A DNA stretch of 64,000 nucleotides, taken from assembly GCF_007990755.1 (NCBI RefSeq), contig NZ_BJXA01000044.1:1-64000 (forward strand), written 5' to 3'. Made by a program: the position numbers and the translations under genes. This stretch comes from Nocardia ninae NBRC 108245 (GTDB lineage Bacteria; Actinomycetota; Actinomycetes; Mycobacteriales; Mycobacteriaceae). This document shows positions 15,287 through 46,435 of the stretch, piece by piece. The notes under the pieces are model-generated. The model was not told where the DNA came from. It was given only the letters and a program-made list of their open reading frames with translations, and did not search any database. The first letter of the stretch is position 1, and every line of letters begins with the position of its first letter.

Positions 15287-15430
15287 TCCAGCAACCGAAG
15301 TAGCCCCCGCCGGGTGTCGCCGGCGCGGGGCGTCGAGCTGACAATTGCTGATAGGCGCTTCTTTTCAAGCGCTGGGGTCACTCTCCTTGCAAGGTCACCT
15401 TGACCTCGCGGTGACGCCCATGCATCACCG
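15287..15430. repeat. Copy A of the glcB 3'-end/terminator repeat (most diverged)
   Basis: This 144-base stretch aligns over its whole length with the 3' end of glcB and its terminator at 46.3 kb: a degenerate CCCGCCGGGTGTCGCCGGCGCGGGG hairpin region, then GATAGGCGCTTCTTTTC, then a decayed coding end whose reverse strand still reads PVMHGRHREVKV where glcB has [12 protein letters not shown]. Similarity by eye is about 70 percent. No glcB-like sequence extends further. Confidence 0.7.
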
Positions 15431-15591
15431 GCCTGGTCTATCCGACCGACCGCGAAGAGAAGTCCAGGGTGCCGGAGCCGATTACGACGCCCGGAATATG
15501 CCGGGCGGAGGAGGCATTGGCATGCCTCCCCACCCACTGTCGCGCCCGCCGAAACTGCCGCCGCCCGAACACACCACGCACAGCATCGGCG

Positions 15592-16245
15592 TCAATAGTC
15601 GACGAGCTGGGCTTGGTGCGCGAAGATGGCGGCTTGGACACGGTTGCCCGCCCCGATGCGCTGCAGAATCGCGCTGACGTGTGCTTTCACTGTTCCCTCT
15701 GCGATGAAGAGCTGCTTGGCGATCTCTCGGTTGGACAGGCCCTGACCGAGGAGGGTCAGTACGTCGCGTTCCCGTTGCGTCAGACTTGACACTCGCTCGC
15801 GCGCGGCGTTCTTGCGTTCGAGGGTAGTGCCGCTGAGCTCGGTGATCACGCGATGGGCGATGCGCGGCGAGAGGAAAGCAGCCCCGTTCGCCGCCGCGTG
15901 GACGCCCATGAGTAGTTCACGAGGATCGGAGGCCTTGAGCAGGAACCCTTTTACACCGGCGGCGAGCGCACGCGCGACATAGTCGCCCTCGTCGAACGTG
16001 GTCACGATGACCACCGCGACCTCGGGGTGGGTTTCGCGTAGCTCGGCGGCGGCACCCAGCCCGTCAAGCACTGGCATCCTGATGTCGAGCAGCGCGACGT
16101 CGGGCTGGTGCACCTGCGTCAGTGCGACGGCCTCCCGCCCGTCCGCGGCTTCCGCGACCACTTCGATGCCGGGATCGCTGGCCAGAATCGCACGCACCCC
16201 CGCCCGAATCATGGCCTCGTCATCGGCCAGCAGAACCCGGATCAC
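15592..16245 (-). CDS. NarL/FixJ-family response regulator
   Basis: A 217-residue two-domain regulator. The receiver has the acidic pair DDE at 8-10, phospho-acceptor Asp54 in LLDIRMP, Thr83 in VIVTTFDEGDYV and Lys104 in FLLKAS. The C-terminal LuxR-type helix-turn-helix is complete (LTQRERDVLTLLGQG, NREIAKQLFIAEGTVKAHV). It is the last gene of a three-gene minus-strand operon: its ATG overlaps the kinase stop by ATGA. It should be phosphorylated by that kinase and bind DNA as a dimer, probably including its own operon promoter near 18.75 kb; that last point is inference. Confidence 0.95.
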   Translation of the reverse strand: MIRVLLADDEAMIRAGVRAILASDPGIEVVAEAADGREAVALTQVHQPDVALLDIRMPVLDGLGAAAELRETHPEVAVVIVTTFDEGDYVARALAAGVKGFLLKASDPRELLMGVHAAANGAAFLSPRIAHRVITELSGTTLERKNAARERVSSLTQRERDVLTLLGQGLSNREIAKQLFIAEGTVKAHVSAILQRIGAGNRVQAAIFAHQAQLVDY

Positions 16246-17291
16246 TCCGCCCCCGCCCGAACCGGCATGCGGGCGGTGACTGTGAAAACCGATCCGTCGT
16301 CGTCGACCTGAAGCGTCCCACCCAGCAGCTGAACTCGTTCGGCGAGACCGAGCAGCCCACTGCCCCGCCCATCGCCGGTTCCCACGCTGCGCCCAGCACC
16401 GCCGGACTTCACGTCACGACTGTTACGGCCGCCGGTTGCCTCGGTACCGATGCCGACTGCCTGCGCAGTGATCGGGTTGGTGACTACGAGGCCGAATTCG
16501 TCTCCGTGCTGCTCGATTTCGATCCGCACGCCGGCGCCGGGCGCGTGTCGGGCGGCGTTGGTCAGCGTTTCCTGCACGACGCGGCGGAGAGCCGATTCGA
16601 CCAGGGGTGGCAGATGGTCGCGTAGCTCGCTCTGGACCAGGTCAACTGTCATGCCGACGGTCCGGGCGCGGGCAATCAGCGCCTCGACGGACATGCTCGG
16701 TGGCTCGACGGCCACGGTGTGGTCGGCTCGGAGCATGCTGACGGTTCGGCGTAGCTCGTCGGAGGCGGTCACTGCGGAGGCTCGTAAGAGACTCGCAGCC
16801 TGGCGGTTCGATTCGTTCAGGTCGGCGCTGAGCTCCAGGGCGCCTGCCTGCACAGCGATCAAGGCCAGTTCATGGCCGAGGGCGTCGTGCATGTCGGTGG
16901 CGATGCGGGCCCGTTCGCGTAGGCGTGCGCTTTCTTCGGCCAGCACCTGGGTCTGCTCCAGGTGGCGGATTCGTTCCTGACCGACTGCGAGCAGTTCGGC
17001 CTGTTGCCGCCGGAACCTGCCGATCACCCACGGCAGCGCCACGAACAGCGCCAGCGACATGACCGCGCCGACGGCCTCGGCGACATCGACCACCGCGATC
17101 AGCGCCGCCGCGGCGAGAGCGACCAGTAGCACCGGCCCACCGTGCCGCTCCGGCAGGCGCCGGCCCTGTATGTAGGCGGCGGCGAAGAGCGCCACGAACA
17201 GCAACTGCCGCCAGCCTGGAAGCCCCTCTGTCGCAAGTCCGTTCAGCGCGCCACCCACCGCCGTGACCGCGAGCAGAGCGCTGTACCTCAT
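16242..17291 (-). CDS. Sensor histidine kinase, HisKA_3 type
   Basis: A 349-residue membrane kinase with about four N-terminal helices (residues 1-90) and no sizeable extracellular domain, so it probably senses within the membrane or through a partner. The dimerisation/phosphotransfer helix contains TDMHDALGHELALIAVQAG with phospho-acceptor His135, followed by the HATPase N-box (VVQETLTNAARHAPGA) and G-box (GSGLLGLAERVQLLGG). About 35 Gly/Ser/Arg-rich residues are inserted before the G-box. It overlaps the hydrolase upstream and the regulator downstream by four bases each. This tight coupling makes the upstream serine hydrolase its likely sensory partner or target. Confidence 0.93.
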   Translation of the reverse strand: MRYSALLAVTAVGGALNGLATEGLPGWRQLLFVALFAAAYIQGRRLPERHGGPVLLVALAAAALIAVVDVAEAVGAVMSLALFVALPWVIGRFRRQQAELLAVGQERIRHLEQTQVLAEESARLRERARIATDMHDALGHELALIAVQAGALELSADLNESNRQAASLLRASAVTASDELRRTVSMLRADHTVAVEPPSMSVEALIARARTVGMTVDLVQSELRDHLPPLVESALRRVVQETLTNAARHAPGAGVRIEIEQHGDEFGLVVTNPITAQAVGIGTEATGGRNSRDVKSGGAGRSVGTGDGRGSGLLGLAERVQLLGGTLQVDDDGSVFTVTARMPVRAGAE

Positions 17292-18724
17292 TCCGCCGAC
17301 CTTACCGAGCGCAGCCGGACCAATCGCAACGCCACTGTCGCCGTCCCGGCAGCCGCGACCACGAACAACGTGATGGTCAGCGGCGCAGCGAAGTACGTGA
17401 GCTGAGACCAGGTGACCGTCCTGCCTCCGCTGATGAAAGAGATGATGGCCGGATAAACGGCGAACACCAGAACCGGAACTGCCAGGGGCAGCAACCGGAG
17501 CGCGACCCGCCACCACGCGCGGCCGCCGTGCCGCCAAGCCCATCGGCGTGACCGCAGGGCTCCGAGCATGCCGAGTCCGATGGCGCCGAGTGCGATCAGG
17601 CCGAGAACCAGCTCGAAAATCTGCCGCCGACCACCGACCTCGCCGGGCGCTTCTCCCCTGCTGAGCGCCACCAGTCCCTTGACGATGTCGTAGGTGTCGT
17701 CGTGCAGCGCGGCGCTGTTGGCCAGCACCGCGAACCCGTAACCGCTCACGGGATCGATGGCTTGAAACGCGGAGTAGGTGAACAGGTTCCCGCTGTGCAC
17801 GAGCATGGCAGGATCGGCCCCCATAGGCTCCGGCGACCAGCCCATCGCATATTCCGCGACCGGTGACGAGGTGTGCGTGACGTCGAGGCCCGCCTGACTC
17901 AGCAGCCGCGGACCGCGGCCATTGTGGGCGATCAACCACTTCCCCATGTCCGCGACCGTGGTGATGACACCTCCGCTACCACTGCCGTCGAGAAACTCGG
18001 ACAACTCGGGGCGGGACACCCAGGCGCCGAACACCGAGTTGTAACCGTCCGCCGGTGTGATCCTCCCGGCGCTCACGGCACTGTGCGCCATCCCGAGCGG
18101 CCCGAACACCCGCTCGGCGAGGAAGTCCCCGAAACTCTGACCACTCGCGACCTCGACCAGCCGAGCCGCGACGTTGTAGTTCACATTGCAGTACTTGAAT
18201 CGCGTGCCGGGATCCGTCGCGAGCGAGGCAGTATCCAGCAGGGACACATACTGTTCGAGCGAACGGGCCTGCCCCAGCCTGCCGATATCGACGGTCGAAT
18301 CGGTCAGCCCCGAGGTCTGATTCAACAGCTGGCGCACCGTCACCGAGCCGCCCCGCGAGTCACCCGGAGCGAACCCGGGCAACTGCTCGGAAACGGGGCG
18401 ATCCAGCGACAGTCGCCCCTGCTCCACCAACACCAGCACGGCCGTCGCGGTGAACGATTTGCTGAGCGAGGCGACCCGCATCGGCGTATCCGCGGTGACC
18501 GGCCCGCCGCCGGACTCATGGCCGTAGCCACCCGCATGCACAACCCGATCACCGCGCGTCACAACGGCTGCCAAGCCAGGCAGCCCGGTGCGCTCGAGCG
18601 CGTCCTCGAGATATTTGTCGATAACAGCCGGAGTCAATGGAGTATCAGGCATGGCATGCGCCGTAGCACCAGGTGCCAGAACGACACCGGCTACGAGAGC
18701 GAGGGCGGCAATAAATCTGACCAT
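17288..18724 (-). CDS. Membrane-anchored serine hydrolase (class C beta-lactamase/PBP4* family)
   Basis: A 478-residue exported enzyme: signal peptide (about 1-24), hydrolase domain (about 30-370), then two or three membrane helices at the C-terminus. Catalytic motifs are SLSK (Ser86, Lys89), the Tyr-x-Asn equivalent YCN (178-180) and HSGN in place of Lys-Thr-Gly. Such proteins are D-amino-acid peptidases or esterases more often than true beta-lactamases. The anchored C-terminus keeps the active site outside the cell, facing the envelope. It is the first gene of an operon with the kinase and response regulator. The ATG at 18724 is preferred over a GTG at 18730. Confidence 0.9.
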   Translation of the reverse strand: MVRFIAALALVAGVVLAPGATAHAMPDTPLTPAVIDKYLEDALERTGLPGLAAVVTRGDRVVHAGGYGHESGGGPVTADTPMRVASLSKSFTATAVLVLVEQGRLSLDRPVSEQLPGFAPGDSRGGSVTVRQLLNQTSGLTDSTVDIGRLGQARSLEQYVSLLDTASLATDPGTRFKYCNVNYNVAARLVEVASGQSFGDFLAERVFGPLGMAHSAVSAGRITPADGYNSVFGAWVSRPELSEFLDGSGSGGVITTVADMGKWLIAHNGRGPRLLSQAGLDVTHTSSPVAEYAMGWSPEPMGADPAMLVHSGNLFTYSAFQAIDPVSGYGFAVLANSAALHDDTYDIVKGLVALSRGEAPGEVGGRRQIFELVLGLIALGAIGLGMLGALRSRRWAWRHGGRAWWRVALRLLPLAVPVLVFAVYPAIISFISGGRTVTWSQLTYFAAPLTITLFVVAAAGTATVALRLVRLRSVRSAE

Positions 18725-18978
18725 GCCCACGACGCTAGGGATCGGCGCCGCCTGGCGGATCTGTCGATCGACCGCACCTACCCCTGACGAAAGTTATAGA
18801 CCCCGAGCGCTATCGGTCCCCGATTCGCAGCTTGCAATGGCGACTGCCCGCCCCGGGCCCGCGCGGCGGAACCTGTTGAAACAACAGGTTATCGACCGAG
18901 TTCCGGCTATCATGAATCGGCCGGAGACGCTCCGGCAGATACAGCGATGCGCTTCGCCGACGACGTGCGAGGAGTCAT

Positions 18979-20013
18979 GTGGCGGAAGAACTGGCAACCC
19001 TGCGCTCCACGACCAGCGTCGCGCTTCTGGCCGAATACGCTATGCGACGGGGTTTGCCGCGGTCGGTGATCCTGCGCGATACCGGCATCAAAGAAGGCCA
19101 GCTCGACGATCCCGCAGGCGAGATCACGCTCGGCCAGGAACTGGCCCTGATGAGCAACCTCACGGCGGCGATCGACGACGAACCCGGGCAAGGGTTCATG
19201 GCCGGTCTGCTCTGCCACCCACCGAGCTTCGGAGTTCTGGGCTTCGCGTTGATGACCAGCCCAAATCTGCGGCACGCCTTGGAAATCGGACTGCGCTACG
19301 TCGATCTGTCGTTCACCGCCGCTCGCCTGGACGTGTGCGACCACGGTGCCGAGGTGTGGATCACGCGCGACGATCGAGCGCTACCGGTGCATATCCGCCG
19401 CTTTGCGCTGGAACGTGATCTGGCGGCGATCTCCACCATTCAGCAAGATCTACTGTCCACGCGGATCCCGGTAACCCGAGTGGAAGTGCCCTACGAACCG
19501 CATCCGATCTATGAAACGTTCGCCGCCATGCTCGGCGTGGAGAAAGTCGTGTACGGCGCCTCAGGCACGACATTGGTCGTCCAGTCGAGTGCGCTGCAAT
19601 TGCCGCTGCCGCAGGCCAATATCGCCACCGCGCGATTCTACGAACAACAATGCGCCGAGCTCATCGACCGCAGGCGCAGCCGCATGGGCATCAGCAAGCA
19701 AGTCCGGCAGCTACTCCTGCGCCAGGGCACCCTGGCCGATCAAGCGCGCGTCGCTGCCGCCCTCAACCTCAGCGTGCGCACCTTGCGACGCCGATTGGCC
19801 GAGGAAGGCACCACATTTCGCGAATTGAGCAACGAAACACTCGGCCTCCTCGCCGAAGAACTCCTCATGGCGGGCCTGACCGTGGAAAACGTTGCCGACC
19901 GCCTCGGCTACGCGAGCCCCTCTGCCTTCACCACAGCATTCCGCGGCTGGCGCGGACTGTCCCCGGGAAACTTCGCCCGCGTAAAGCGCGGACTCGCACC
20001 CGTCGGCGCTTGA
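18979..20013 (+). CDS. AraC-family transcriptional regulator (OruR/ArgR-like architecture)
   Basis: A 344-residue regulator with a long Arabinose_bd-type N-terminal domain (about 20-200) and a C-terminal AraC DNA-binding domain (about 245-335). The first helix-turn-helix is LADQARVAAALNLSVRTLRR and the second VENVADRLGYASPSAFTTAF ends at the signature RGWRGLSPGNFARVKR. Relatives respond to small metabolites such as amino acids or fatty-acid derivatives. GAGGAG lies five bases before the GTG start. It is divergent from the serine hydrolase operon, and no enzyme gene is cotranscribed with it. A 46-residue ORF follows immediately. Confidence 0.9.
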   Translation: MAEELATLRSTTSVALLAEYAMRRGLPRSVILRDTGIKEGQLDDPAGEITLGQELALMSNLTAAIDDEPGQGFMAGLLCHPPSFGVLGFALMTSPNLRHALEIGLRYVDLSFTAARLDVCDHGAEVWITRDDRALPVHIRRFALERDLAAISTIQQDLLSTRIPVTRVEVPYEPHPIYETFAAMLGVEKVVYGASGTTLVVQSSALQLPLPQANIATARFYEQQCAELIDRRRSRMGISKQVRQLLLRQGTLADQARVAAALNLSVRTLRRRLAEEGTTFRELSNETLGLLAEELLMAGLTVENVADRLGYASPSAFTTAFRGWRGLSPGNFARVKRGLAPVGA

Positions 20014-20022
20014 ACGCAACCG

Positions 20023-20163
20023 ATGTCGAGTTCCGCGCACAGGGGTCGGCCCCCGCTCTCCGCGGTCCTGCTCTACGCCATCCTCATGGGACTACGTCTG
20101 CCGCTGCTCGCAGGAACCGATCCCGACCCCGTACAGACCACCACGCCGACCGCACCCGTCTAA
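20023..20163 (+). CDS. Small single-span membrane peptide (46 aa), uncertain
   Basis: A 46-codon ORF beginning nine bases after the AraC stop. The peptide has a basic N-terminus (SSSAHRGRPP), one hydrophobic segment (LSAVLLYAILMGLRLPLLAG) and a polar Thr/Pro-rich tail. No good ribosome-binding site is visible, so it could be noise or the relic of a larger membrane protein. I list it because the hydrophobic segment and charge distribution look like those of a real small membrane protein. Confidence 0.35.
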   Translation: MSSSAHRGRPPLSAVLLYAILMGLRLPLLAGTDPDPVQTTTPTAPV

Positions 20164-20261
20164 TGCACTGGGTCACTCAACCGATAGCAAATGCTGCCTG
20201 TTTCGGGGACGATCTCCGGCGACGTCGATATGAACGGGCACGAGAAGGCTTAGCTTAATTT

Positions 20262-22310
20262 TCACCACCATTGAGTGATCTCGCCGATTCGGCGGCCGAG
20301 TTCAGGTGCCAGGGACCTGGCGTAGCTGGCAGTGAGGTGGTGCTCGTCGCGGTAGATCAGCACGTTGCCCTCGGCGGCGAGACAACGGTCGGGGCGGCAG
20401 ATGGCGTCGGACAGATCCAGCGGGAAGATGTTGGGATGTCGCGATGCCGGTAGCTCGGCGGGGTTCTCCGGATCGAGCGCGGCCGCTCGGTCCATCCCGC
20501 AACTGTAGGGAGTCCCCCGCTGTGCCAGGCAGTCGACGGCACGGTAGTGCACCTCGCCTCGACGCAGCCACGGGACATCGCGGATCGCGAGGACGTTGAG
20601 TCCGCGGTCTGCCAGTGCAATCCAGGTATCGATGAATTCCGTTGGTACGTAGTCTCCTTCGCCCCAGCGGGGGCGTGTGCCGATGGTGAACAGCCACTCC
20701 GGGCGGTGTTCGGCGAGCAGGTCGAGGACCTCGATGGACCATTCGCGGCATTCGGGGAACGGTGCGAGGGCATAGGAGGGCTGGTCGGCCAGGGTGAGCG
20801 GACAGTTTTCCTTCAGATATGTCACGATGCGGAATTGATGCTCGCTCGCAAGGAGTTCCAAGGCCGGCAGCCAGTGTTCGGAGTGTGAACCGCCGACCAA
20901 GGCGATGGTGCGGGCGGCGTTCACGTCACCATAGGTGCAGACACGGACTTCTCGGCTCGAGGTGATACAGCCGTCGGAGGTCGGTGCCGGCGCGTCGAGC
21001 GGGCCTTCGAACACGGTCGGCCGCATCGGCTCCGGTGCGACGGCCAGCTCCTCGAAAAGCGCTGCCGCACCGGGATATCGGTTGACGGCCAGCTCAGTCG
21101 CCGGGTGCGCGGGGTTCGCCCGGACCACCGCTTGCCAGCTGAGCGCGGCAACCAGCACGCCGACGCCCAGTACCGATACCGCCGCCCCGATTCCGCGCTT
21201 ATAACGCGCCGCCACACCGGACCCGGTACTGGTCGGGCGCAGGCGCAGCGGTGTCTCGATCAGCCGCTGCGTCGCCACCGCGAGGACGAGCGAGACGGCG
21301 ATGACGAGAATTCCGCCACCGATGCCGGGACTACTCTCGCCGTATTCGGTCAGGTAGAAGATCAGCACCGGCCAATGCCACAGGTAGAGCGAGTAGGCCA
21401 GCGCGCCGAGTTCGACGAGCAGCGGTGCCGCCAGCAGCCGGTTGATCCACGGCCGCGGTGCGGTTCCGGTGTTCATACCGGACACGATCAGCGCGGCAGT
21501 GGCGAGGACGGGATAAAGCGCGGCGGGGCCGGGGAATTCGGTGCCACCATCGATGAGCAGCCCACAGGAGATCACCATGCCCAGACCGACGACCGCGAGT
21601 ATCGCGCGCACCGGCTTGGAAATCGAAATCCATGGTGCGGCAACGGCCAATGCCGCACCGACGAGCAGTTCCCAGGCGCGGGCGCCGCTGTCGTAGTACG
21701 TCCACGCCTGATGCTGTGCCGATCCGGAGGCCGCGTAGCAGAACGAGACCACGCCGAACCCGGCCAGCCAGGTCAGCAACCGCCCACGAAATCGTAGAGT
21801 CCACGACCAGATCCCGACGATCAGCAGCATCAGTAGATAGAACTGACCGAGTACCGCCATCGACCACAGATGTTGCAGCGGACTGACCGAGGGATCGGGT
21901 GCGAGGTAGTCCAATTCCGCCCCTGCCAGATACCAGTTCTGGTAGTACAGCGCCGAGGCGAGAGTCTGGGCCGAGATATCAGCCCAGCGCGTATAGGGCT
22001 GGGCGATCACCGTGGCGGCCAGCACTGCGGCGAGGACCAGACACAGCGCGGGCAACAGCCTGCGTACGGTCCGGCGCACGGTGTATCCGAGACCGATCGC
22101 ATCGGTGGTCTCGATGCGGCGCAACAACATTGCGGTGAAGAAGAATCCCGACAGGACCAGGAACACGTCCACCCCGCCGGAGACCCGGCCCATCCACACG
22201 TGGAACACCACGACCAGCACTATCGCCAGGCCACGCAGACCGTCGAGGTCGCGTCGATACCCGGTGCCGGCCGCCGCCCCGGTCCGGTCCGCCTCGATCT
22301 CGTTCGACAC
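20262..22310 (-). CDS. OafA/YrhL-type acyltransferase with C-terminal SGNH domain
   Basis: A 682-residue envelope enzyme. The acyltransferase-3 domain (about 15-370) has around ten membrane helices; its signature parts are YRRDLDGLRGLAIVLVVVFH, GGVDVFLVLSGFFFTAMLL, RRTVRRLLPAL and SLYLWHWPVLIF. An SGNH hydrolase-like domain follows outside the membrane, with block I as ALVGGSHSEHW and the terminal Asp-x-x-His as YRDEHHLTASY. Such two-domain proteins O-acylate cell-wall glycans or lipids: the membrane part moves the acyl group and the SGNH part transfers it. GTG at 22310 with GAGG upstream is preferred; ATG at 22349 is possible. It is a single gene; the acceptor is unknown. Confidence 0.92.
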   Translation of the reverse strand: MSNEIEADRTGAAAGTGYRRDLDGLRGLAIVLVVVFHVWMGRVSGGVDVFLVLSGFFFTAMLLRRIETTDAIGLGYTVRRTVRRLLPALCLVLAAVLAATVIAQPYTRWADISAQTLASALYYQNWYLAGAELDYLAPDPSVSPLQHLWSMAVLGQFYLLMLLIVGIWSWTLRFRGRLLTWLAGFGVVSFCYAASGSAQHQAWTYYDSGARAWELLVGAALAVAAPWISISKPVRAILAVVGLGMVISCGLLIDGGTEFPGPAALYPVLATAALIVSGMNTGTAPRPWINRLLAAPLLVELGALAYSLYLWHWPVLIFYLTEYGESSPGIGGGILVIAVSLVLAVATQRLIETPLRLRPTSTGSGVAARYKRGIGAAVSVLGVGVLVAALSWQAVVRANPAHPATELAVNRYPGAAALFEELAVAPEPMRPTVFEGPLDAPAPTSDGCITSSREVRVCTYGDVNAARTIALVGGSHSEHWLPALELLASEHQFRIVTYLKENCPLTLADQPSYALAPFPECREWSIEVLDLLAEHRPEWLFTIGTRPRWGEGDYVPTEFIDTWIALADRGLNVLAIRDVPWLRRGEVHYRAVDCLAQRGTPYSCGMDRAAALDPENPAELPASRHPNIFPLDLSDAICRPDRCLAAEGNVLIYRDEHHLTASYARSLAPELGRRIGEITQWW

Positions 22311-22572
22311 CGACCTCAGGCGCACGGCGCCATGAACCCAAGTCAACATGCGCCGCCACCTCGTACACCGTCCACCGGCTTCGCCGACCTCCGCGTGAGC
22401 ACCGTCCGACTCCCACCATCGCTGTGACCGACCCGCCGCCCGGGCCGGGTTGCCGACCAGACCTCCCGGCACTCCGCCCGCAAACCATGCCGCAGCAGGC
22501 ACCGTCGAATCAAACCGGCAGCAGCACCCAGCGCTGGATGATGCGGTTCGGTTGCCTTGGCGCCGAGGATGT

Positions 22573-22775
22573 TCACGGTCTTCGATACCTGTCGGGTACT
22601 CCATCGCTGTCCGCGTCGTAGGCTTCTTGTTCGATGATGACGCGATAAACCCGGTTACGGAACCGCAGCAGCACGGTGGATGGCAGTGCGGGTGCCGGCT
22701 GTGGACCATCGTCGTCGCGGGCGTGCCGTGCCCGCTGCGATGAACCTCCGCAGTGAAATAGATCGTCCGCCGCAC
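22573..22775 (-). pseudogene. Frameshifted small gene, family unknown
   Basis: Two fragments in adjacent minus-strand frames look like one small protein. The upstream piece reads RRTIYFTAEVHRSG from a GTG at 22775. After a one-base shift the second reads STVLLRFRNRVYRVIIEQ then EAYDADSDGVPDRYRRP and stops at 22573. The second piece has clear coding character, with a possible calcium-loop-like DADSDGVPD motif. The total, about 66 residues, lies in the 588-base gap upstream of the acyltransferase. A sequencing error rather than a true frameshift is possible. Confidence 0.4.
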
Positions 22776-22898
22776 CTCCAATCGTGAGCGAAATCGGTGA
22801 TTACCCCGATGTGGACACTGCCCGGGCGGCATAAAGTTTCTTCGCGGGGGCGCGAAACATCAACGCGCCAACGTTTTTCGAACAGTCCGGGGGGCGAG

Positions 22899-23288
22899 GT
22901 GACAGGTATTCGTCGGTGGTCGATGACCGCTGCCGCGCTGTACACCGTGTGGGGTGTGCTGCACATGGGGCTCGGCGTCTCCATGGTGATCGGTGACCTC
23001 GCCGACGGCGCGCCCGGCACCGAGTTGGCGGCCGAAAGTCTGCTGTACTTCATTTGCGTGACCACGCTTGGGGCGCAGGCCATCTTCGTCGCGGTGACCA
23101 TGAACAGGGTCAACAGTCGCCTGGGTTTTTGGCTCAACGCCGTGGTACTCGGCGTGGTCGATCTGGCCTTCTCGGTGCTGCTCGCGGCGCCCGGTTACGT
23201 CGACCTGATCGGCGCGATCGTGGGACCGGTCGTCTGGCTGCTGGCCACCGCGTGCGCGGCCGTCGCATTGCGACAGCCCTCGACCTGA
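22899..23288 (+). CDS. Hypothetical four-helix membrane protein
   Basis: A 129-residue protein with four predicted membrane helices spread over its full length (AAALYTVWGVLHMGLGVSMV; LLYFICVTTLGAQAIFVAVT; LGFWLNAVVLGVVDLAFSVL; LIGAIVGPVVWLLATACAAV). The GTG start at 22899 follows a GGGGGGCGAG purine run. I do not recognise the family, but its size and topology resemble small DoxX-like or DUF-type actinobacterial membrane proteins. It is a single gene, closed by a strong shared terminator. Confidence 0.6.
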   Translation: MTGIRRWSMTAAALYTVWGVLHMGLGVSMVIGDLADGAPGTELAAESLLYFICVTTLGAQAIFVAVTMNRVNSRLGFWLNAVVLGVVDLAFSVLLAAPGYVDLIGAIVGPVVWLLATACAAVALRQPST

Positions 23289-23290
23289 CA

Positions 23291-23327
23291 GCGGCGTCCC
23301 CGGCGGCATACCTGCCGGGGACGCCGC
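23291..23327. terminator. Bidirectional terminator
   Basis: A perfect 14-bp stem, GCGGCGTCCCCGGC at 23291-23304 and its complement at 23314-23327, with a nine-base loop. It stands between two convergent genes whose stops are within a few bases of either arm, so it can serve both. Confidence 0.85.
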
Positions 23328-23334
23328 CGCGTAC

Positions 23335-34628: not shown

Positions 34629-34639
34629 TCCCACACTGG

Positions 34640-36896: not shown

Positions 36897-36926
36897 CGTG
36901 TCAAATCCTCCACTCGCCCACAGTGA
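36880..36926. repeat. Inverted dispersed repeat, copy at the glxA-like start
   Basis: This 47-base segment (start codon region plus upstream TTTGACA) matches the reverse complement of 43546-43592 with about six or seven differences. Both contain GGCGAGT, ATTTGACA and AATTCGCCA, followed by unrelated sequence. Confidence 0.6.
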
Positions 36927-37920: not shown

Positions 37921-37943
37921 AAGGTGACTCCGCCTCGTCGGCT

Positions 37944-38222
37944 TCACGATTCCGACTGCCAACGGCCTCGCCGCGGCGAGGCGCGGCAATGGTGCTCGTC
38001 GCGGGCACTGATCAGGTCGGAGCGACGGCGCCCCTGGACGTGGCGAAGCCTGTACGGATCGAGGACCACGATCTCACCATCGACAGCGAAGGGCTGATCC
38101 GCAGGCGCGAGCCCAGCCAGTTCAGGCCACACGGCATCGGCGCGTAACGCGGCAGCCCGCTCACGCCAGTCTCGCCGCCGCCATGGTCGCCCTTCCGATG
38201 AGGTGAGGCCGGTTTCTGGCAA
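37944..38222 (-). pseudogene. Possible second ATP-dependent DNA ligase fragment
   Basis: A 92-codon frame reads PWRRRDWRERAAALRADAVW, then PELAGLAPADQPFAVDGEIV and VLDPYRLRHVQG. The P-E-L-A-x-L then V-D-G-E-I-V-x-L-D pattern is the segment that follows motif Ia in NHEJ-type ATP-dependent DNA ligases. It overlaps in position the piece missing from the ligase relic at 34.6-35.4 kb. The rest of a ligase is absent. The call is tentative. Confidence 0.35.
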
Positions 38223-38575
38223 TTAGCTGGATAATTCCGATTGGCTGCCCGATGTCATCGATCCGGCCAACGCAGTCCGCGACCGGTCAATCCCGTGTGC
38301 CGGTTGTCGCCCCGTCGGCGACGCGACGGGGCGGGGCTGGAGGCGGGAAGCAGGGCAGTGCGGGGCGCTCATGTCGGGAAAGCTCGGCAGCCTCAGATCC
38401 ACCGTCGTGGCGCGGCGGGGGCGCTGGTCAAGCTGGTTGAGTTTGTCCTGGGCAGCGGCCAGGCTCACCCGCAGGCCCTCGACCTCGCCGATCCAGCCCG
38501 CCTTTTCGGCCTCGGTGACGCGTGCGGTGAGGTTGTCGCGGATTTCGACCAGCCGCGGCCTGCGTGAACGCCAGC
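38223..38575 (-). pseudogene. Integrase relic A: C-terminal tail of a large tyrosine recombinase
   Basis: The minus strand encodes RPRLVEIRDNLTARVTEAEK, AGWIGEVEGLRVSLAAAQDK and LNQLDQRPRRATTVDLRLPS. This is clearly the same as the tail of relic B (RARLEEIRVNLEARIIEARR, EGWLGEVESLQVSYSGVNDK, LAQIDATPQRTT). Only the last 65 or so residues of the recombinase remain. It abuts relic B head-to-head near 38575, as after an inversion or a rearranged double insertion. Confidence 0.75.
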
Positions 38576-40176
38576 CGTCCCTGGACTTCGCCAGCATCGA
38601 CGCGGTCTCGAGGACGCTGGCCGGCCTGTTCTGGGCCCGCATCGAGACACTGTCTCCCGGCATCGACACCCTGCAGATCCCTCCGGAGGTGATGCGTTCC
38701 TGGAAGGACGCCCTCGGCACCATCGAACGCACCACGATCAGCAGCAACGGCGAGCGGATCAAGGTGCCGGTGCCGCGGCTGAACCTGAAAGATGAACTGA
38801 TGCGAGTGCGGGCCCTCTACCTCGACATCGCGCACTGGGCTGTCGAGGACCCAGCTTGTTGAGGACCATGGGTTGCGCCCTGCCCAATCACCAACGCCGA
38901 AATTCAGAAGGCCAAGGAACGCAAGCACCGCAAGGCACGCATGGACCAGCGCACCCGGGAACGGCTGCCCGTCCTGCCTGTCCTCGTGCGCACCGTCAAC
39001 GACCGGCGTCTCGCTGCGGCCCGAGTACTGGCCTCAGCCCAGGCGGCAGAACCTGGGGCGATCGTCGACGGCACCGACGGAAAGTGGCGAAAAGCTGTTG
39101 TTCCCCATGCGATCGGGCGATTCGTCTGGGCCGAGGACGTCGCTACTGGCAAACGCCGCAACCTGTCCTACGAGGAAGAGGAGGCGTTCTGGGCGTTCGC
39201 GACCATCGAGGTCTTGCGCCTGACCGGCATCCGCTGCGAGGAACTGCTCGAACTGACCCACCACAGCATCACCGAATACCGGCTGCCCAGCACAGGCGAG
39301 CTGGTGCCGCTGCTGCAGATCGCACCGTCCAAGACCGACACCGAGCGCCTGCTCCTGGTCAGCCCCGAGCCGGCCGACATTCTCAGCACCATCGTCCAGC
39401 GCTTACGCAACCCGGACGGCTCCATCCCGCTAATCGTCTCCTACGACGTCAGGGAGAGAATCTGGAACCCGCCGATGCCCGTGCTGTTCCAGCGCGGCAT
39501 CGGCAACGAACGCCGCGCTTACACCCCGACCGCGATCCGCAAGCTGCTCATCAACACCCTCGCCGCAACCCGGCTCACCGACCCGAACGGCGACCCACTG
39601 ATTTTCAGCCCCCACGACTTCCGCAGGATCTTCGTCACCGACGCCATCATGAACGGCCTGCCACCGCACATCGCACAGGTCATTTGCGGGCACAAAAGCA
39701 TCGACACAACCACGGGTTACAAGGCCGTCTACCCTGCAGAAACCATTGAGGCGCACCGGGCGTTCATCGCGCGCCGCCGGTCCGTTCGGCCCGGCGAGGA
39801 ATACCGCACTCCGACCGACGAAGAGTGGGACGCATTTCTGTCCCACTTCGAGAAGCGGAAAGTGTCGGTCGGGACATGCGCGCGGGCATTTTCGACGCCG
39901 TGTATTCATGAGCACGCATGTGTCCGATGTTCACTCCTGAGGCCGGACCCGGCCCAACGAGCCAGGCTCGAAGAGATCCGCGTCAATCTCGAAGCCCGCA
40001 TCATCGAGGCCAGACGCGAGGGCTGGCTCGGCGAAGTCGAGAGCCTGCAGGTCAGCTACAGCGGCGTCAACGACAAACTCGCCCAGATCGACGCCACGCC
40101 CCAGCGAACCACAGCAGGGACCGAACTCGGCATCCCCGGATTCGATGCGATTTTCGGAAGGACTGCTGCCCCATAG
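38575..40176 (+). pseudogene. Integrase relic B: nearly intact large tyrosine recombinase with one internal stop
   Basis: One forward frame runs from about 38575 to 40176 and encodes some 530 residues of a phage-integrase-type recombinase, interrupted only by TGA at 38860-38862. The paralogue (relic C) has Trp in the equivalent DPARWAAWVAPCP, so TGG to TGA is the likely lesion. Catalytic residues remain: Arg in LRLTGIRCEELLELTHHS, His-x-x-Arg in SPHDFRRIFVT, and GHKSIDTTTGYKAVYP with the nucleophilic Tyr region. The C-terminal tail contains a Cys/His cluster (CIHEHACVRC). The N-terminal arm is missing. A fragment from the ATG at 38941 could still be translated and would keep the catalytic domain. 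Confidence 0.82.
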
Positions 40177-40257
40177 GGATTAGCTCAGATGCTCCTCAAT
40201 CCAGCCGCCGCAGCGTCGGTCAACGGCGATTGATGGTTACGGACTACCCTGCCGTTG

Positions 40258-40908
40258 ATGAGCGCAGACGACTGGTTGACCGATACCCGAATCTCCTACG
40301 ACACTGTCGCGCTGAGCTATGCCGACCAGGTGCGCGATGCCTTGGCTGGACACCCATACCTCCGTGCAGCTCTGGCATTGTTCGCGGACAGCGTGCGGGC
40401 CGCTGGCGGCGGGCTCGTAGCCGATGTCGGGTGCGGTCCCGGACACGTTACCGCCTACTTACACGAGCTGGGTGTTGATGCTTTCGGTGTCGATCTTTCC
40501 CCTGGGATGATCGAGGCAGCTCGGCGTGACCACCCCGGACTGCGGTTCGAGGTGGGTTCTATGACGGAGCTGGACTTCCCGGCAGCCTCGATGGCCGGCA
40601 TGCTGGTTTGGCAGTCGTTGATCCACGTCCCCGACGACGAGGTCCCGGCCGTGCTGAGGCACTTTCATCGAGTACTGCGTCCCGGCGGACCACTGCAATT
40701 ACTGTTCCACGTCGGCACCGAGTCGCAGTTGAAGACCCAAGGCTATGGCGGTCACCCGATGAATGTCCATGTCCACCGTCGGCAGCCGGACCTCATGACG
40801 ACCTGGCTGCGTGATGCCGGATTCAAGGTCGAGGCTCACATGCTGCTCGCCCCGGAAGAGAAAGCTTCGCAAGCAATACTTTTCGCACGTCACCAGCCCT
40901 ACCAGTAG
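40258..40908 (+). CDS. Class I SAM-dependent methyltransferase
   Basis: A 216-residue small-molecule methyltransferase. Motif I is VADVGCGPGHVTAYL, the acidic residue after strand 2 is in VDLSPGMIEAAR, motif II lies at VGSMTELDF, and post-motif HRVLRPGGPLQLLFHV is intact. It belongs to the UbiE/Methyltransf_11 type, and the substrate is unknown. It begins 81 bases after relic B and is flanked on both sides by recombinase debris, so it is probably cargo of the mobile element. Its codon use does not stand out from the backbone. Confidence 0.88.
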   Translation: MSADDWLTDTRISYDTVALSYADQVRDALAGHPYLRAALALFADSVRAAGGGLVADVGCGPGHVTAYLHELGVDAFGVDLSPGMIEAARRDHPGLRFEVGSMTELDFPAASMAGMLVWQSLIHVPDDEVPAVLRHFHRVLRPGGPLQLLFHVGTESQLKTQGYGGHPMNVHVHRRQPDLMTTWLRDAGFKVEAHMLLAPEEKASQAILFARHQPYQ

Positions 40909-40989
40909 TTCAGAGAAGCAGCTGTGCTCGTGCTGGCAACTTGTTCCATAAGCACGCCCGCAATCACCGAGAGCCAGTTTGCAACGTTC

Positions 40990-42095
40990 GAAATGGCCCG
41001 GGAACTCCTCCTACTCGGTATCGGTCGGGGTGCGGTACTCCTCGCCCGGGCGCAAGGCGCGCCAGGCGGGCAATGAACGCTCGAAGGGCTTGGATCGTTT
41101 CCTATGGGTAGATCGCCTTGTTACCCGTGGTGGTGTTAATGTCCTTGTGCCCCGAAAAGAACTTATGCGCTATGCGGAGGCATGCCGTTCACGATCGCCT
41201 CGGTGACAAAGATCCGGCGCAGGTCATGCGGCTGGAAGTACAGCGGCTCGCCCGCAGCGTCGGTCATCGCGGTCTTGTCCAACAGCTCGATCGGCGCCGC
41301 GCGAACCAGCCCCGCGGAGACCCCGCGTCGCTGTGCGCCGGAGCGCCACTGGAACAGCAGCGGCGCCAAGGCGTTTAGGTCCGGTCGGCCAAATCGTAGA
41401 ACGGCACCAGCGGCACCCGCCCGTCACGGTCGCGGACCCGGGATACGATCGTGGCCAGCACGTCGGCCAACTCCGGGCCCACCACCAGCAGTCGCGCCTC
41501 ATCGCTCTTCGACGGCGCGATATGCAGCAGCGGCACGATCTCCCCGGTACCGGGCAGCCGGTACTGGATGATGCTGTGGTGGCTGATCTCGAGCATTTCC
41601 TCGATCCGAGCACCGGTATGGCGCAGCACCTCCACACTCGCCCACGCCCAGAACGCGCGATTCTCCAACTCGTGCAACCGAATCCGGCGACCATCAGAGT
41701 CGGAGATGTGCGGGATAGTCTCGGTGCAGGCCTCGGTCCACGGCTTGGAGCGGGTGTAGACGCGCTCACCGAACTCGAAACTGGCACCAGCGGGTGCGGC
41801 CACAGCCGCAGCGACCAATGCCTGGGCATCGCGCATCCGGTGCTCGGCCAGGCGCACTAGCTGTGGCCACACAGGCAGCCGCTCACGCGTGCGCTGATCC
41901 ATGCGTTCCTTGCGTCGGCGTTCGAGCTTTTTCGCGCTCGTCTCCGCGGGGCTGGTCGGGCACGGTGCCACCCACGCAGCCCAGCGTGCCGGATCGGTAG
42001 CCGCCCATGCCGCCAGGTCCAGGTAGAAGCGGCGGACCGAGGTGAGCAGGTTGATGCTGATCAGATAGTTGCCGCTGCCGACGGCAGTGGCCCTC
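40990..42095 (-). pseudogene. Integrase relic C: frameshifted copy of the same large tyrosine recombinase
   Basis: The minus strand holds a third copy: FYLDLAAWAATDPARWAAWV, RMDQRTRERLPVWPQLVRLA, GARIEEMLEISHHSIIQYRL and TGEIVPLLHIAPSKSDEARL in one frame ending near 41375. After shifts come FQPHDLRRIFVTEAIVNGMP and SGHKDINTTTGNKAIYP, with a TAG directly after IYP. The N-terminal arm and the C-terminal tail are gone. At least two frameshifts and one stop make it non-functional. The Tyr of TTGYKA is Asn here (TTGNKA), so even the catalytic site has decayed. Confidence 0.82.
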
Positions 42096-42387
42096 GCACA
42101 TACGACACCAGCGCCAGTTGTCTTGGGCAGCGTGCGGCGTGTTCGATCCATCGAGGGCCTACGGTGCCGGCTAAGGCAATTGCACCCGTGGCTCCCATTC
42201 CCCGAAGCATCCCCTGCGAGACAGCTCAGGCGTGCCAGGTCAGGCATAAAGTTCGACATAGTTTCCCATGGCGTGAGTTCTATCCCGGCACCCTCCTATG
42301 GGCCGCCTGTTCATTGAAGTGGGACGACACCCGGCTTTCGGGTTTCAGGATCCATATTCAGCTTCCGAAACCGGCGGAAGTGAAGAT

Positions 42388-42945
42388 TCATGGCTGGTAT
42401 TTGTCATCCCAGAAAGCGTTGCGTTGACCTACGCAATCCCACTGTTGCGCCACCGCTCCGTTTGATTGGTTGGCGTCTGCGATTTCTAGGCACTTCCCGC
42501 TGTGAAGATTGACGAAGAAGGAGCGGTATACGCCGTCGATTCGATCGTCTTTCCATCTCCAGTATGCGTTTGCTTGCCCGACGCAATCCCATAGTTGAGC
42601 CTTGGCGCCGTTTTGCTTGCTGTAGTCGGCGATCTCCAGACACTTGGTGGGATGCGACACTGGCGTAAAGAAGTAGAGATTCTCTCCGGTGCTGTCGTCA
42701 TAGTGACTGGTCCAATACGCCGAATCCTGATCTTCGCATTTCCACTGTTGGACTCGCGCACCGTTACGGCCATCATTGTTACTCACCTCCAGGCATTTAC
42801 CGGTAGCGTGATTGACGAAATATAAACCACTGCCTAGGGATTCGGGAGGCCGGCTGACTCCATCTGATGCCTGAGCGGGAGCTGCCATCGCTGCGGTGCT
42901 CGCAACTGCCATTCCGACAACAATCGCTCGTAATCTATTGTTCAC
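42388..42945 (-). CDS. Secreted ricin-type beta-trefoil lectin
   Basis: A 185-residue exported protein: signal peptide about 1-27 (VVGMAVASTAAMAAPAQA), then a single beta-trefoil. Three repeats each have C-L-E-[VI]-[AS] and Q-x-W: KCLEVSNNDG with VQQWKCEDQ, KCLEIADYSK with AQLWDCVGQ, and KCLEIADANQ with AQQWDCVGQ. All three sugar-binding Q-x-W sites look intact and the paired cysteines should form disulfides. No catalytic domain is attached, so it is a free carbohydrate-binding protein. GTG at 42945 is preferred (AAGG upstream); GTG at 42975 is also in frame. It neighbours recombinase relic C. Confidence 0.83.
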   Translation of the reverse strand: MNNRLRAIVVGMAVASTAAMAAPAQASDGVSRPPESLGSGLYFVNHATGKCLEVSNNDGRNGARVQQWKCEDQDSAYWTSHYDDSTGENLYFFTPVSHPTKCLEIADYSKQNGAKAQLWDCVGQANAYWRWKDDRIDGVYRSFFVNLHSGKCLEIADANQSNGAVAQQWDCVGQRNAFWDDKYQP

Positions 42946-44393
42946 GATTCCAACCTTTACGTGGGTTTGAGACACATGTTCTTACCGGCGGGATTTGCTT
43001 CGGTGCGACCTTGGCCGAGTTGGGTGCGGCGAATCACTGACAGAGGTAGCGCTGACGCCTTGACTATGGTGCCGCCGAAACGTCACTCGACTCGGGCTCG
43101 AACGCGCCCGCAATATAGTCGTGACCGTCGCGTTGTCAACCGCAGTTGATTCGCTCCGAGCTTCTTCTAATGGGCGGAAATGCCGATGATTATTTCACAT
43201 AGAAGTGTTACATCATGTCAAGTCTGACGGCAGCCCTGGTATCTGGGGCAATACCCAGATACCAGTAGGCTTGGGGTTGGCTCACCCGTCTGGGAACCTG
43301 ACCCGCAGGGGCCTGATCGTTATGGGGTTGAATGTCACGAATGCATTCACCGTCGGCAGGCGCGCCGTCCGGGACATTGATGCGCCCGCCCGAGTCGCCG
43401 CTTGGGCGTTTCTGCCCCAACTGAGCAAGGATCGCGTGTCCTTTTGATCACCGCACACGAGCTCAGTGCAGATGCGCCTGCTCCCGCAGGGAGGAGTGTT
43501 GGGTTCATGTGCCCCAGTGTGCCGCGCTCAATACTGTTGGGCGAGTAGAGAATTTGACAAGGTGCGTAACAAATTCGCCACCGACGACCGGAGGAGATCC
43601 ACCCGGCGATCGGAACGCCAGGCGGATCGACTGGGCATCCGAGGAAGAGGCGACTCCGACGATTGCCACAATGATCAACGTGGGGATCAACCGCAGTACA
43701 CCCAGCACTGCCGGACCGATTAGCGACCTGACTGGCGGGCGGGCTTCGTCGCTGCTGCCAACGCTGCGGTCTGGGCATCAGTAGTGCTTGCGGTACCAAT
43801 CACCGGGGTCACCGCGCCCGAGGGCCGATCCCGACGTCAGCGTATGTGCCCAGACCCGCGCGTCTGAAGGGTGAGCCGCTGTGCATGACGCAATCAAGGC
43901 TGCTCCCCACAGCGCGAATGCGGCGGGCAACCCGCGCAATGCGACTGCGAAGGCATCATTTGGGCGGAAATCGTCCTCGAAACGTGCCAGCGCTGCCGAG
44001 ATCGCACAGCTCTTCGAGCGGCTGAACATCCGCCCTTGATCGTCCGGGTGCGACTCGGACCGACCTCCTGCCCCTCCGGAAGCGAACGACTGCGCGGTTG
44101 CGGCTGAACCGAGGGTCGGCCTCAGTTGACGACCGCAGCGAACTTCCTGACACAGTGAAGTCCCCTTCCCCTGACGTGGCGACCCACTATATGGCGCAAC
44201 TGGAACGAGACTCGCATCCGCCTAAGCGAGGTCGGCGACGTCGTGGAGGGTCCAAGTCTGCGGGCCGCCGGACCACACCGAACTAGCGTTGTCTGATCTG
44301 ATCGATCATCCGTGCCCAGCCTACGTTGCGGTCAGCCGGCGCAGAGGAAGCCAGTATCATAGTATTTCGATTGTCATGAATCGAGGGGTGCGG
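42946..44393. other. Gene-poor stretch with doubtful small ORFs
   Basis: About 1.4 kb with no assignable gene. Two minus-strand frames have some coding character: 43778-44029 (83 codons, containing a hydrophobic LRGLPAAFALWGAALIAS) and 43505-43708 (67 codons, with LGVLRLIPTLIIVAIVGVAS). Either could be a small membrane protein or the debris of one. No ribosome-binding site supports them. An inverted copy of the glxA-like start region lies at 43546-43592. Confidence 0.35.
43546..43592. repeat. Inverted dispersed repeat, copy away from the glxA-like gene
   Basis: On the + strand this reads GGGCGAGTAGAGAATTTGAC followed by a GTG and ACAAATTCGCCA. It is the counterpart of the glxA-like start region on the minus strand at 36880-36926. 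No regulator gene follows here: only the first six or so codons are shared. Confidence 0.6.
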
Positions 44394-45281
44394 ATGGCAG
44401 GTCAACGTGCGCGATTGCAGATCATTTCCCTGACCGCCGCCATTGTTATCGGCACCTTAGGAATAGTCGGAAATTCGGCGGACATTCTCTCTCTTTTTAC
44501 AACGATTGGTCTCGTCGGTACCGCCGCAGTCCTGGCCGCAGCAGTCGGTATTGCGGCCTTCATCGATATTTTTCGCGCTCGACACTACCCCTCTCCGCAG
44601 GAGAGTCCTCGGTCCGAGCGGGCCATCGTTGCGGAGAAGGCGATCGGCGTGACGGCTACAGTGATGGCGGTCGTTTTGGCTACGCTCGCCATCTTGCAGG
44701 CACCGGCGGGACAGGGAAATGACAACCCCGGAGCGGCTGCTTCGACGACGAGTAACGACCAACGGCTGCCCATCGGTACTACGGCCGCTACCCCGGTTCT
44801 CGGTTTCGAGTTCTGGCAGGACGGTGCCCGCCCTCCAGTCCGAACCAGCCGTGACCCAGGCTACGATGTAGCCCAGGTCAGGCTGCAGCCGAAGCCGTTC
44901 GAGATCCACCTGCCTCGCCGTGGGGCGGACGTAGGAGTCCGTATTGTTGCCTGGCTCGACCGATCGATCTTCGATCTGGCAAATGGACGTAGAACCGCCG
45001 ACACATCATATTTCCGACCAGGTACCGGTTACGCGGACCATTCTTATGGCGAGACCGGACTGTTCCTCGGCAAAGAAGGCCACAACCATTTCGCCCGTGA
45101 CCGGATTGTCGATGCAGTGGGGAATTCGCCACAAATGGAGAAGTTTTTCGTCAAATCTATTCGCGCGCCCCAGAGCGAAATATTCCCTCCCGGCGTCGCG
45201 CTAACGATATTTATAGACAAAAACAGCAACACTACCATCGACGATGGCGAATACGAGTATGCCGAGCTCGAGTTCCAATGA
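44394..45281 (+). CDS. Hypothetical membrane protein with large C-terminal domain
   Basis: A 295-residue protein with three predicted membrane helices (about 8-28, 36-60 and 85-110: LQIISLTAAIVIGTLGIVG; TIGLVGTAAVLAAAVGIAAF; GVTATVMAVVLATLAILQ). A Ser/Thr-rich linker and a 160-residue polar domain follow (LGFEFWQDGARPPVRTSRDP, FEIHLPRRGADVGVRIVAWL, FIDKNSNTTIDDGEYEYAEL). The ATG at 44394 is supported by GAGGGG four bases upstream; in-frame ATGs at 44376 and 44289 lack one. I do not recognise the family. Its AT content and codon use look slightly less GC-biased than the backbone, in keeping with an accessory origin. Confidence 0.65.
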   Translation: MAGQRARLQIISLTAAIVIGTLGIVGNSADILSLFTTIGLVGTAAVLAAAVGIAAFIDIFRARHYPSPQESPRSERAIVAEKAIGVTATVMAVVLATLAILQAPAGQGNDNPGAAASTTSNDQRLPIGTTAATPVLGFEFWQDGARPPVRTSRDPGYDVAQVRLQPKPFEIHLPRRGADVGVRIVAWLDRSIFDLANGRRTADTSYFRPGTGYADHSYGETGLFLGKEGHNHFARDRIVDAVGNSPQMEKFFVKSIRAPQSEIFPPGVALTIFIDKNSNTTIDDGEYEYAELEFQ

Positions 45282-46281
45282 AGGGCATCGTACTTCCGGG
45301 CACGACGTTTCTCTCCCGCTGTCGAAAGTGATGTTCATCGGAGAGCTCATCGTGTCGTCGGATTCCAGCTCAACCAGTCGATGACAACCCGGCATCCGCA
45401 GAGAACTCGCGCGGGTCGCTCAAAGATCGCGCTCGTCGGCGTACAGGACGATCTCGGCGGTATCGGCAGGGAATATCGGGGATAATCCGCTGCGGAATCG
45501 AACAAGGCCCCATACGGTCACAGGGCACCACGTTGACCAGCGAGGTGAAGCTGAGCCCCAACCCTCGGGTTCGCTGATTCTTTAGTCAACCGAGCACTCT
45601 CAGGGGCAGATTCGAACCGTAGTTGCCCCTGTATTCCCCTGCGGTACCGCCGTCCTGGTGCCCCGCAGAACCACCGCAGCCGAACTGCGACACCATCGCC
45701 CGCCATTCAGGGGTGGTGAGCGAGGAACACGATAACGGCGGGCTGTACAGATCGTCACCGCCTGCGACCGGTGACAGCATCGAAGGCCAGCACGCTGCGC
45801 AAGAACATCTACAGCGTGCCGTTTGCCGCGAGATTGCCAGACGCAAAAAGGGTCACTCGATCGCCAGGAACCTTTTCGCGAATGGACTGCGCCCAACGTC
45901 CAAGCAGCCGTCCGCAGCGACCAGCGCCGCAACTGCCGCCACAGGCATCGGGTATCGCCGCCGAGCCACCGACACCGAATCCGTGGTGTGGGGGCCCGGT
46001 AGCGCATAACCGCCGGAGGCGACCGAACCATTTGCATCTCATCCGCGCTGGGCCGGGGCGATGGACGTACATCCCGGCGCCCCTGGGCCAGCGGGTCACT
46101 GACTGACGCGAGCATTGCGTCCGACCCACCAGTTCGGTCATGAGACCTACGATTCGCACCACCGCAGGCGCAGCCCGAAGGGAGGGGCTACAAATCCGCT
46201 GGTAGGCAAGCTTTGGTGATTGTGGCGGCACACCCCGTTTTGTGACCGGTTTGGGCGTGACGAACCGGTATTTCCGCTGAG
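45282..46281. other. Gene-free kilobase before glcB terminator
   Basis: About 1 kb without a gene I can support. Overlapping frames on both strands (for example minus 45600-46115) are Arg/Ala/Pro-rich with no initiation site and no recognisable motif. This is consistent with decayed island DNA at the right edge of the accessory region. Confidence 0.4.
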
Positions 46282-46435
46282 CTCCAGTAATGAAAGAGGC
46301 CCCGCGCCGGGTGTCCCCGGCGCGGGGCCTCAAGCCGAAAAGCGTTGCTAGGCGCTACTTTTCAGCACTGAACGTCACGCTACTTGCAGGCTTCCTTGGC
46401 CTCCCGCCGACGCCGATGCAAAATCGGCTCGGTGT
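46282..46435. repeat. Copy C: the genuine glcB 3' end and terminator
   Basis: This is the parental copy of the repeat seen at 15.3 and 29.9 kb. It comprises the last 55 or so coding bases of glcB, its TAG (46380-46382), a short GAAAAG/CTTTTC element and the terminator hairpin. Confidence 0.85.
46296..46331 (-). terminator. glcB terminator
   Basis: A perfect 16-bp stem (GAGGCCCCGCGCCGGG at 46296-46311 and its complement at 46316-46331) with a TGTC loop, about 50 bases after the glcB stop. On the minus strand it is followed by CTTTCATTACTGG, giving a short T-rich tail. Confidence 0.85.

Follow-up and report, generated by a model that had tools for sequence, protein, structure and literature searches.

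We analysed a stretch of 64,000 nucleotides from Nocardia ninae NBRC 108245 (contig NZ_BJXA01000044.1, positions 1 to 64,000; hereafter the window), which contains glcB, the gene for malate synthase G (46380..48557, minus strand; 725 aa; orthologues in the compared relatives at 85-99%). The 3' end of this gene is very probably the attachment site of islands inserted by a tyrosine recombinase, with the window holding three successive insertions of this kind. They appear as three stacked and decayed islands devoid of an int gene, namely A (13.05-15.28 kb), B (15.44-29.89 kb) and C (30.05-46.28 kb), and the order along the window is: a remnant of the native glcB tail (13.0 kb), A, tail copy 3, B, tail copy 2, C and the present glcB end. 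The evidence consists of the tail copies and their order, the arm repeats beside them, the int genes next to displaced copies in related genomes, the presence of both empty and occupied sites in the genus, and the older layers shared with a sister genome.

Copies of the glcB end in the window

The repeated block comprises the last ~55 coding bases of glcB, the stop codon and a terminator, and it occurs in the window, whole or in part, four times, always on the minus strand. Copy 1 (46282..46435) is the present tail of the gene, with the core, the last codons (EACK), the stop, a GAAAAG/CTTTTC element and the terminator, and is read by us as supplied by element C. Copy 2 (29893..30045), 90-91% identical to the glcB end, is a displaced older tail, frameshifted and with a partly decayed terminator, and copy 3 (15285..15444) is a displaced, heavily decayed tail at 65-75% identity, with a partial orthologue in the sister genome G079. 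In an ungapped repeat search, the first part of this family of direct repeats covers 46282-46385, 29893-29996 and 15285-15388, with 91% (glcB end) and 65% (left copy) identity to the middle copy, and its continuation covers 46387-46435, 29997-30045 and 15391-15439, with 88% and 67%; if gaps are allowed, the left copy aligns over 15287-15444 at 75% identity (E 4e-20). An initial annotation, made from the letters of the window, had noticed three copies in one orientation and an abrupt end of the shared part within the gene. The repeat search and the alignment return these copies, and in the alignment the homology indeed breaks off sharply within the glcB coding sequence, but a fourth, coding-only copy (13019..13053) had been missed.

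Copy 4, a remnant of the native glcB 3' end that is also present in G079, came to light in searches with the tails of relatives (E 6e-7). When 35 nt of the displaced native tail of G046 were compared without gaps, copy 4 scored 31 and copy 2 scored 27, and the background did not exceed 23 in the window outside the copies or 24 in 50 kb of other loci of the same genome; copies 1 and 3, with 24 and 23, stayed at the background level. Just downstream of copy 4 lies a small open reading frame (ORF) of 33 aa (MGSVVLDVV..GFPPL; 12773..12874, minus strand), present in 112 of 148 genomes at E<=0.01. It directly follows glcB in many relatives and is read as the native downstream neighbour of the gene. 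The two successive insertions deduced in the initial annotation were thus rightly called successive, but given the fourth copy they would number at least three.

The repeat is virtually confined to this locus. In the whole genome of the strain (9.7 Mb) the middle copy retrieves 42 matches at E<=10, of which only itself (8e-82) and the glcB end (1e-52) are strong and the remaining ones are short (E>=0.0025); this search did not list the left copy, and decayed copies elsewhere would escape it. The glcB end as a query gives four matches at E<=1e-4, three of which are the copies and the fourth probably the hairpin matched in reverse. No further clear copy was therefore disclosed by either query, with the proviso that very decayed ones could escape, and the scatter over many unrelated places, which according to the initial annotation would speak for a mobile terminator, was not found.

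The hairpin of the terminator weakens from copy 1 (-43.1 kcal/mol, z -7.8) through copy 2 (-33.6 kcal/mol, z -6.3) to copy 3 (-26.2 kcal/mol, z -1.8), in agreement with growth of the array at glcB and with the oldest layer on the left. Shuffled versions of the GAAAAG/CTTTTC element of copy 1 fold about as well as the element itself (z -0.5). A GAAAAGTAGC...CTTTTC element between the stop and the terminator is conserved in copies 1 and 2 and in many of the element-type glcB ends of relatives, which are defined below.

Integrase, arms and crossover in related genomes

The candidate enzyme comes from relatives of the strain. All nine homologues of the integrase (Int) with at least 75% identity lie ~100-112 bp upstream of a copy of the glcB tail, in the orientation of glcB (genomes G014, G016, G018, G032, G033, G054, G057, G059 and G093; the frames of G014 and G032 are truncated, and the glcB end of G054 was not inspected). 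C-terminal remnants of Int precede three more tail copies, in the loci L089 (rearranged), L094 (weak) and L098. The catalytic domain of Int is that of the tyrosine recombinases (PF00589, E 9e-10; phrog_1, E 3e-30), with R255, R397, H419 and Y430, which we take to be the catalytic residues, invariant in seven of seven sequences. Ahead of int, four elements have a gene for an Xis-like protein of 66-89 aa, which matches HTH_17 in L088, L134 and L140, below the curated cut-off of Pfam, and was placed by alignment in L131. The initial annotation had thought of a tyrosine recombinase, and this is borne out by the int genes beside the copies in relatives; in the window these genes are gone, and the recombinase fragment at 38941-40176 belongs to another family.

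The Int family was found here only in Nocardia. All matches of Int to phages and plasmids are below 27% identity, no solved structure was matched by sequence, and among 301 family genomes two have Int at E<=1e-60, both of them Nocardia (at most five candidates per genome were scored among the matches shown). More distant homologues, at ~58% identity (L142-L144), are not located beside the glcB block, as judged by reading their flanks; L142 and L144 have another conserved stretch in common after int, and the homologue in L143 seems, by eye, to abut what is presumably the 3' end of msrB.

The loci with int share, upstream of the tail copy, CAAAACGGYCACAAAACGGYCAC-like repeats together with GCAGGTCAGG, and at the glcB side the CAAAACGGYCACAAAACGGYCAC-like repeat recurs beyond the terminator. 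The octamer ACGGYCAC is found 59 times in 14.3 kb beside the copies vs 170 times in the entire set of loci (637.7 kb, with overlap between some of them). Judged by their pattern, these repeats flank the copies like the putative arms of an island attachment site (attP). Such arms are also seen in the window. With up to three mismatches allowed, a P'-type repeat (CAAACCGGTCACAAAACGG; 46235..46253, minus strand) beside copy 1 is matched nowhere else in the window (0 matches expected), and the same motif occupies the same place in relatives. Upstream of copy 2, where no int is left, element C has a P-type arm (CGGTCAC...GCAGGTCAG; 30070..30110, minus strand; one match, 0 expected), for which the search pattern was drawn up after viewing the relatives and this very stretch; its spacing is, by eye, that of the int-bearing L087. 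Element C has thus lost its int gene, but its two ends can still be recognised. A degenerate P'-type arm of element A (CCGTCACAATCAAAACG; 15250..15275, minus strand) was discerned by eye in the alignment, and G079 has a similar stretch beside its copy 3.

Direct repeats, one at the 3' end of glcB and the other at the far end of the islands, are present in the window and in relatives. The tail homology starts at the YTEP codons and ends at about REAK, and in 11 of 12 pairs of proximal and distal copies an identical run extends from about CGAGCC to +18, the exception being the old pair of the window itself (several pairs join contigs of one genome, with the pairing assumed). In G014, G018, G046 and G059 the glcB end is a full block with terminator and the distal copy, which adjoins int or its remnant, is the coding core only, which places the crossover within the last ~45 coding bases. 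Most of the 17 empty sites that we read (L154-L170) end in REAKALACV and are followed by another terminator (CGAATCCCC...). The coding-only distal copies and the different terminator of empty sites indicate that the terminator is supplied by the element. In G014 and G046 the last residues at one end are clearly not those at the other, and element-type ends often read EACK, AACK or FKAAQK. The proposals of the initial annotation that the 3' end of glcB is an attachment site and that the element carries a replacement gene end thus gain support from relatives, with the addition that the terminator comes with the element.

Therefore, we propose that a family of integrative islands of Nocardia uses the last ~45 coding bases of glcB as its chromosomal attachment site. 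Each island would encode a tyrosine recombinase of ~445 aa and, as in the four elements mentioned above, a small Xis-like protein with HTH_17, and its attP would contain a copy of the glcB core followed by the island's own last codons, stop and terminator, with ACGGYCAC arms on both sides. Recombination would give glcB the tail and the terminator of the island and displace the former tail to the distal end, where int lies; the new tail would again be a site, and insertions would stack. We infer that the insertions in the window were made by a recombinase of the glcB type, presumably with this direction of exchange, and that such islands may travel between cells; from their sequence, those of the window were probably mobile too.

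Occupancy of the site, layers and alternative explanations

The glcB end has a match in 143 of 148 Nocardia genomes (own included), and 16 genomes besides our own have two or three, counts that may in some cases include the reversed hairpin (the second copy of G074 was not located). A listed match from query base 1 was available for 132 of the 143 genomes, of which 106 also have the small ORF. With the full block defined as a match that reaches query base 85 or beyond, 52 of the 132 genomes are of the element type and 80, with the coding part only, of the native type, among the matches listed. For 35 of the 66 native-type genomes and for none of the 40 element-type ones, the small ORF and the glcB end are on one strand and at most 1.5 kb apart (Fisher p 8e-10, not corrected for kinship), i.e. 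the empty site does exist in relatives. In the element-type genomes the small ORF is 4.1-144 kb away on the same contig (28 genomes) or on a different contig (12). The other 31 native-type genomes have it at 1.5-5 kb (11), at 5-75 kb (8) or on the opposite strand (12), the native order being variable and other insertions also occurring at the glcB end. A quick maximum-likelihood tree of 60 glcB genes, a chosen sample of 40 element-type and 20 native-type rows without the short G008, requires nine changes of the end type, at least seven of them forced by supported branches, which suggests that the occupation of the site is recurrent.

The relative age of the layers is suggested by G079, whose glcB is 98% identical to that of the window. 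In this genome the small ORF has the native remnant at its side, together with the element A genes, a partial copy 3 that includes the arm, and genes of element B. The colinearity with the window spans 9.8-25.2 kb, at 86-95% in the main stretches and interrupted by gaps and by additional DNA peculiar to G079, and includes 15.5-18.8 and 20.3-25.2 kb of element B at ~91%. For 25.3-46.1 kb of the window no match was found in the 86 kb of G079 examined, except the tail and two stretches of ~100 bp. Because the native remnant, element A and element B (as far as 25.2 kb) recur in G079 and the interior of C does not, the islands probably grew at glcB and the leftmost layers are likely to be the oldest, as the initial annotation had supposed for the left copy. 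It had also asked whether relatives might have the gene order of the window with a single copy, which would speak against insertion; G079, which has the order of 9.8-25.2 kb, retains both the native remnant and some of copy 3.

Several observations weigh against this reconstruction. The window has neither int nor a remnant of it, and the enzyme is deduced from relatives. The small ORF is 5-75 kb away also in the eight native-type genomes mentioned above: the three that were fetched (L171-L173, from G066, G083 and G138) have native-type tails followed by other DNA, and of the other five only the gene of G112 was used, in the tree. The distal copy of G128 includes additional coding sequence (45 codons of glcB), and this tail pair is perhaps a later duplication. 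A tail copy is located far from glcB in G043 and on another contig in G127 and G139, for which either a rearrangement or a secondary site may account. G079 lacks 25.3-29.9 and ~18.8-20.3 kb of the window, so that element B may be composite, and it has the left end of element C, up to 46173, in common with the window, so that C is not datable by G079. Finally, 7 of the 41 element-type genomes examined (G017, G018, G028, G043, G059, G124 and G144) have native- or lineage-like last residues and the FKAAQK tails fill one whole clade; hence a change of residues by the element is directly seen only in G014 and G046.

These stray and paired copies were also inspected individually. In L097 of G128 (3299-6039), ~2.5 kb separates the two tail copies and no int was found. 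The copies away from glcB (L148 of G043, L149 of G127 and L150 of G139) have the terminator and a P'-type arm, and that of G043, which is a single contig, lies ~480 kb from glcB on the other strand.

Of the explanations that compete with recurrent insertion at glcB by the Int family, the one that departs least from it accepts the site-specific insertions as real and attributes the layers of the window to another enzyme, such as the large tyrosine recombinase at 38.3-42 kb. Fragments of that large family do occur inside element C, and no glcB-type Int is left in the window; yet matches to the family are spread over numerous contigs of the genus and showed no association with the listed tail copies, and arm motifs of the glcB type stand on both sides of element C, so we consider this very unlikely. 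We see still less probability in a tandem duplication or homologous recombination at glcB with the accessory DNA gained later. The copies of G128, 98.7% alike over 77 bp and with 45 glcB codons in the distal one, would fit it, but the int-bearing loci have one fixed start of the copy after int and the arm, and duplication does not yield tails that differ between the two ends, as in G014 and G046. Hardly any credence can be given to a mobile or repeated terminator module that would have nothing to do with the DNA between its copies, despite the strong hairpin terminator in the shared block, for the 9.7-Mb genome has no further clear copies, the block has its start within the coding part and, in relatives, comes after int and the arm repeats, and the distal copies of four genomes have no terminator at all; after the searches of the own genome we rejected it.

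The Pfam annotation of the layers is as follows. Element A (13054..15284; ~2.2 kb left) has DUF2000 and HTH_67 genes, which in G079 likewise lie between copy 3 and the native remnant. Element B (15445..29892; ~14.4 kb, possibly composite) encodes a two-component system, a beta-lactamase-fold hydrolase, AraC, an acyltransferase-SGNH protein, TetR, SDR and a uracil-DNA glycosylase. The gene of the last is present in 74 of 148 genomes, own included, in listed places mostly away from glcB, and lies between glcB and the small ORF in our own genome and in G115; being so widespread elsewhere in the genus, it was rejected as a mark of foreign origin. Element C (30046..46281; ~16.2 kb) encodes a zinc alcohol dehydrogenase (Zn-ADH), a hydrolase, a GNAT protein, an adenosine deaminase (at E<=1e-60 in one of 148 genomes, the own), AraC, recombinase fragments, a methyltransferase and a ricin-type beta-trefoil lectin (42388-42975), the gene of which is within a stretch of lower G+C. 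The recombinase fragments (38376-42259) are a graveyard of the large tyrosine recombinase family in both orientations, with an inverted repeat (39184-39446 and 41394-41656, 71%) among them; the Phage_integrase fragment at 38941-40176 was set aside as the enzyme of the glcB site, since its relatives are larger recombinases on many contigs. A tRNA-Arg call at 24556-24640 lies inside the ORF 24209-25192 and was not used. To the left of the hotspot, a conserved gene (11743..12375, minus strand) has orthologues that adjoin the small ORF or a displaced tail in relatives, and at 12400-12661, left of the native remnant, an 83-bp unit is repeated three times in tandem (spacing 92 and 87 bp, 64-86% to the first unit).

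Relation to known islands and significance

The mechanism as such would be a known one, i.e. that of genomic islands that enter the 3' end of a gene and restore it. What is new is the glcB site, the recombinase family found here only in Nocardia, and the unusually legible stack of layers. Prophages in icd supply a replacement 3' end to the gene, as the glcB islands seem to do. The two differ in integrase, gene and phylum, and to our knowledge neither stacked decayed elements nor an element-supplied terminator is part of the icd case. It is e14 and related prophages that use icd of Escherichia coli as their site, and those of the e14/phage-21 type resemble the glcB islands in that they insert in the coding part of a gene of central metabolism, according to the portion of the source consulted (PMC12803456). 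The glcB islands do not appear to be prophages: no phage structural family was found among the 30 window ORFs scanned with Pfam, and the best phage integrase has 26.5% identity to Int.

Other known elements share single features with the glcB islands. Salmonella genomic island 1 (SGI1) also uses the 3' end of a protein gene, thdF (trmE), and forms tandem arrays (PMC2297512, in part); as far as this source goes, the attP of SGI1 measures 18 bp and its arrays repeat a single island, whereas at glcB different islands, unequal in age, are stacked, each with a tail and terminator. The actinobacterial integrative conjugative elements (AICEs) likewise have an actinobacterial tyrosine integrase with Xis at the attachment site, but those of the tyrosine type reside mostly in the 3' ends of tRNA genes, by the sections of PMC3218068 used here, and the glcB islands in a protein gene. 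The rep and FtsK-type tra genes of AICEs were not identified among the glcB-element genes scanned, that is, the 30 window ORFs and island ORFs of relatives, the complete int-bearing islands of which were not annotated end to end. The islands treated by TIGER and Integrase-On-Demand also restore the entered gene and have protein genes among their chromosomal sites (attB); in the main text of that source, as consulted in part, glcB, malate and Nocardia are absent (PMC12884075), and in the literature that we searched we came across no mention of glcB as a site of integration.

Nocardia thus gains a defined insertion hotspot with an integrase, a core and arms, from which the histories of islands can be read, and glcB with Int could possibly serve as an integration tool. 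The stacked tails record, layer upon layer, how insertions followed one another at the same place, the older layers being common to sister species. The islands can replace the terminator of the gene and also, as seen in two or more genomes, its last residues; hence the 3' ends of glcB in Nocardia should not be taken simply for the result of vertical inheritance. With 52 of 132 glcB genes having an island-type end with its own terminator, it is tempting, if rather unlikely, to go further and to consider the islands as exchangers of gene ends that may have repeatedly rewritten the last residues and the terminator of malate synthase across the genus, with the module of tail and terminator kept for tuning the enzyme or for insulating or coupling the transcription of the island, and not merely for healing the gene.

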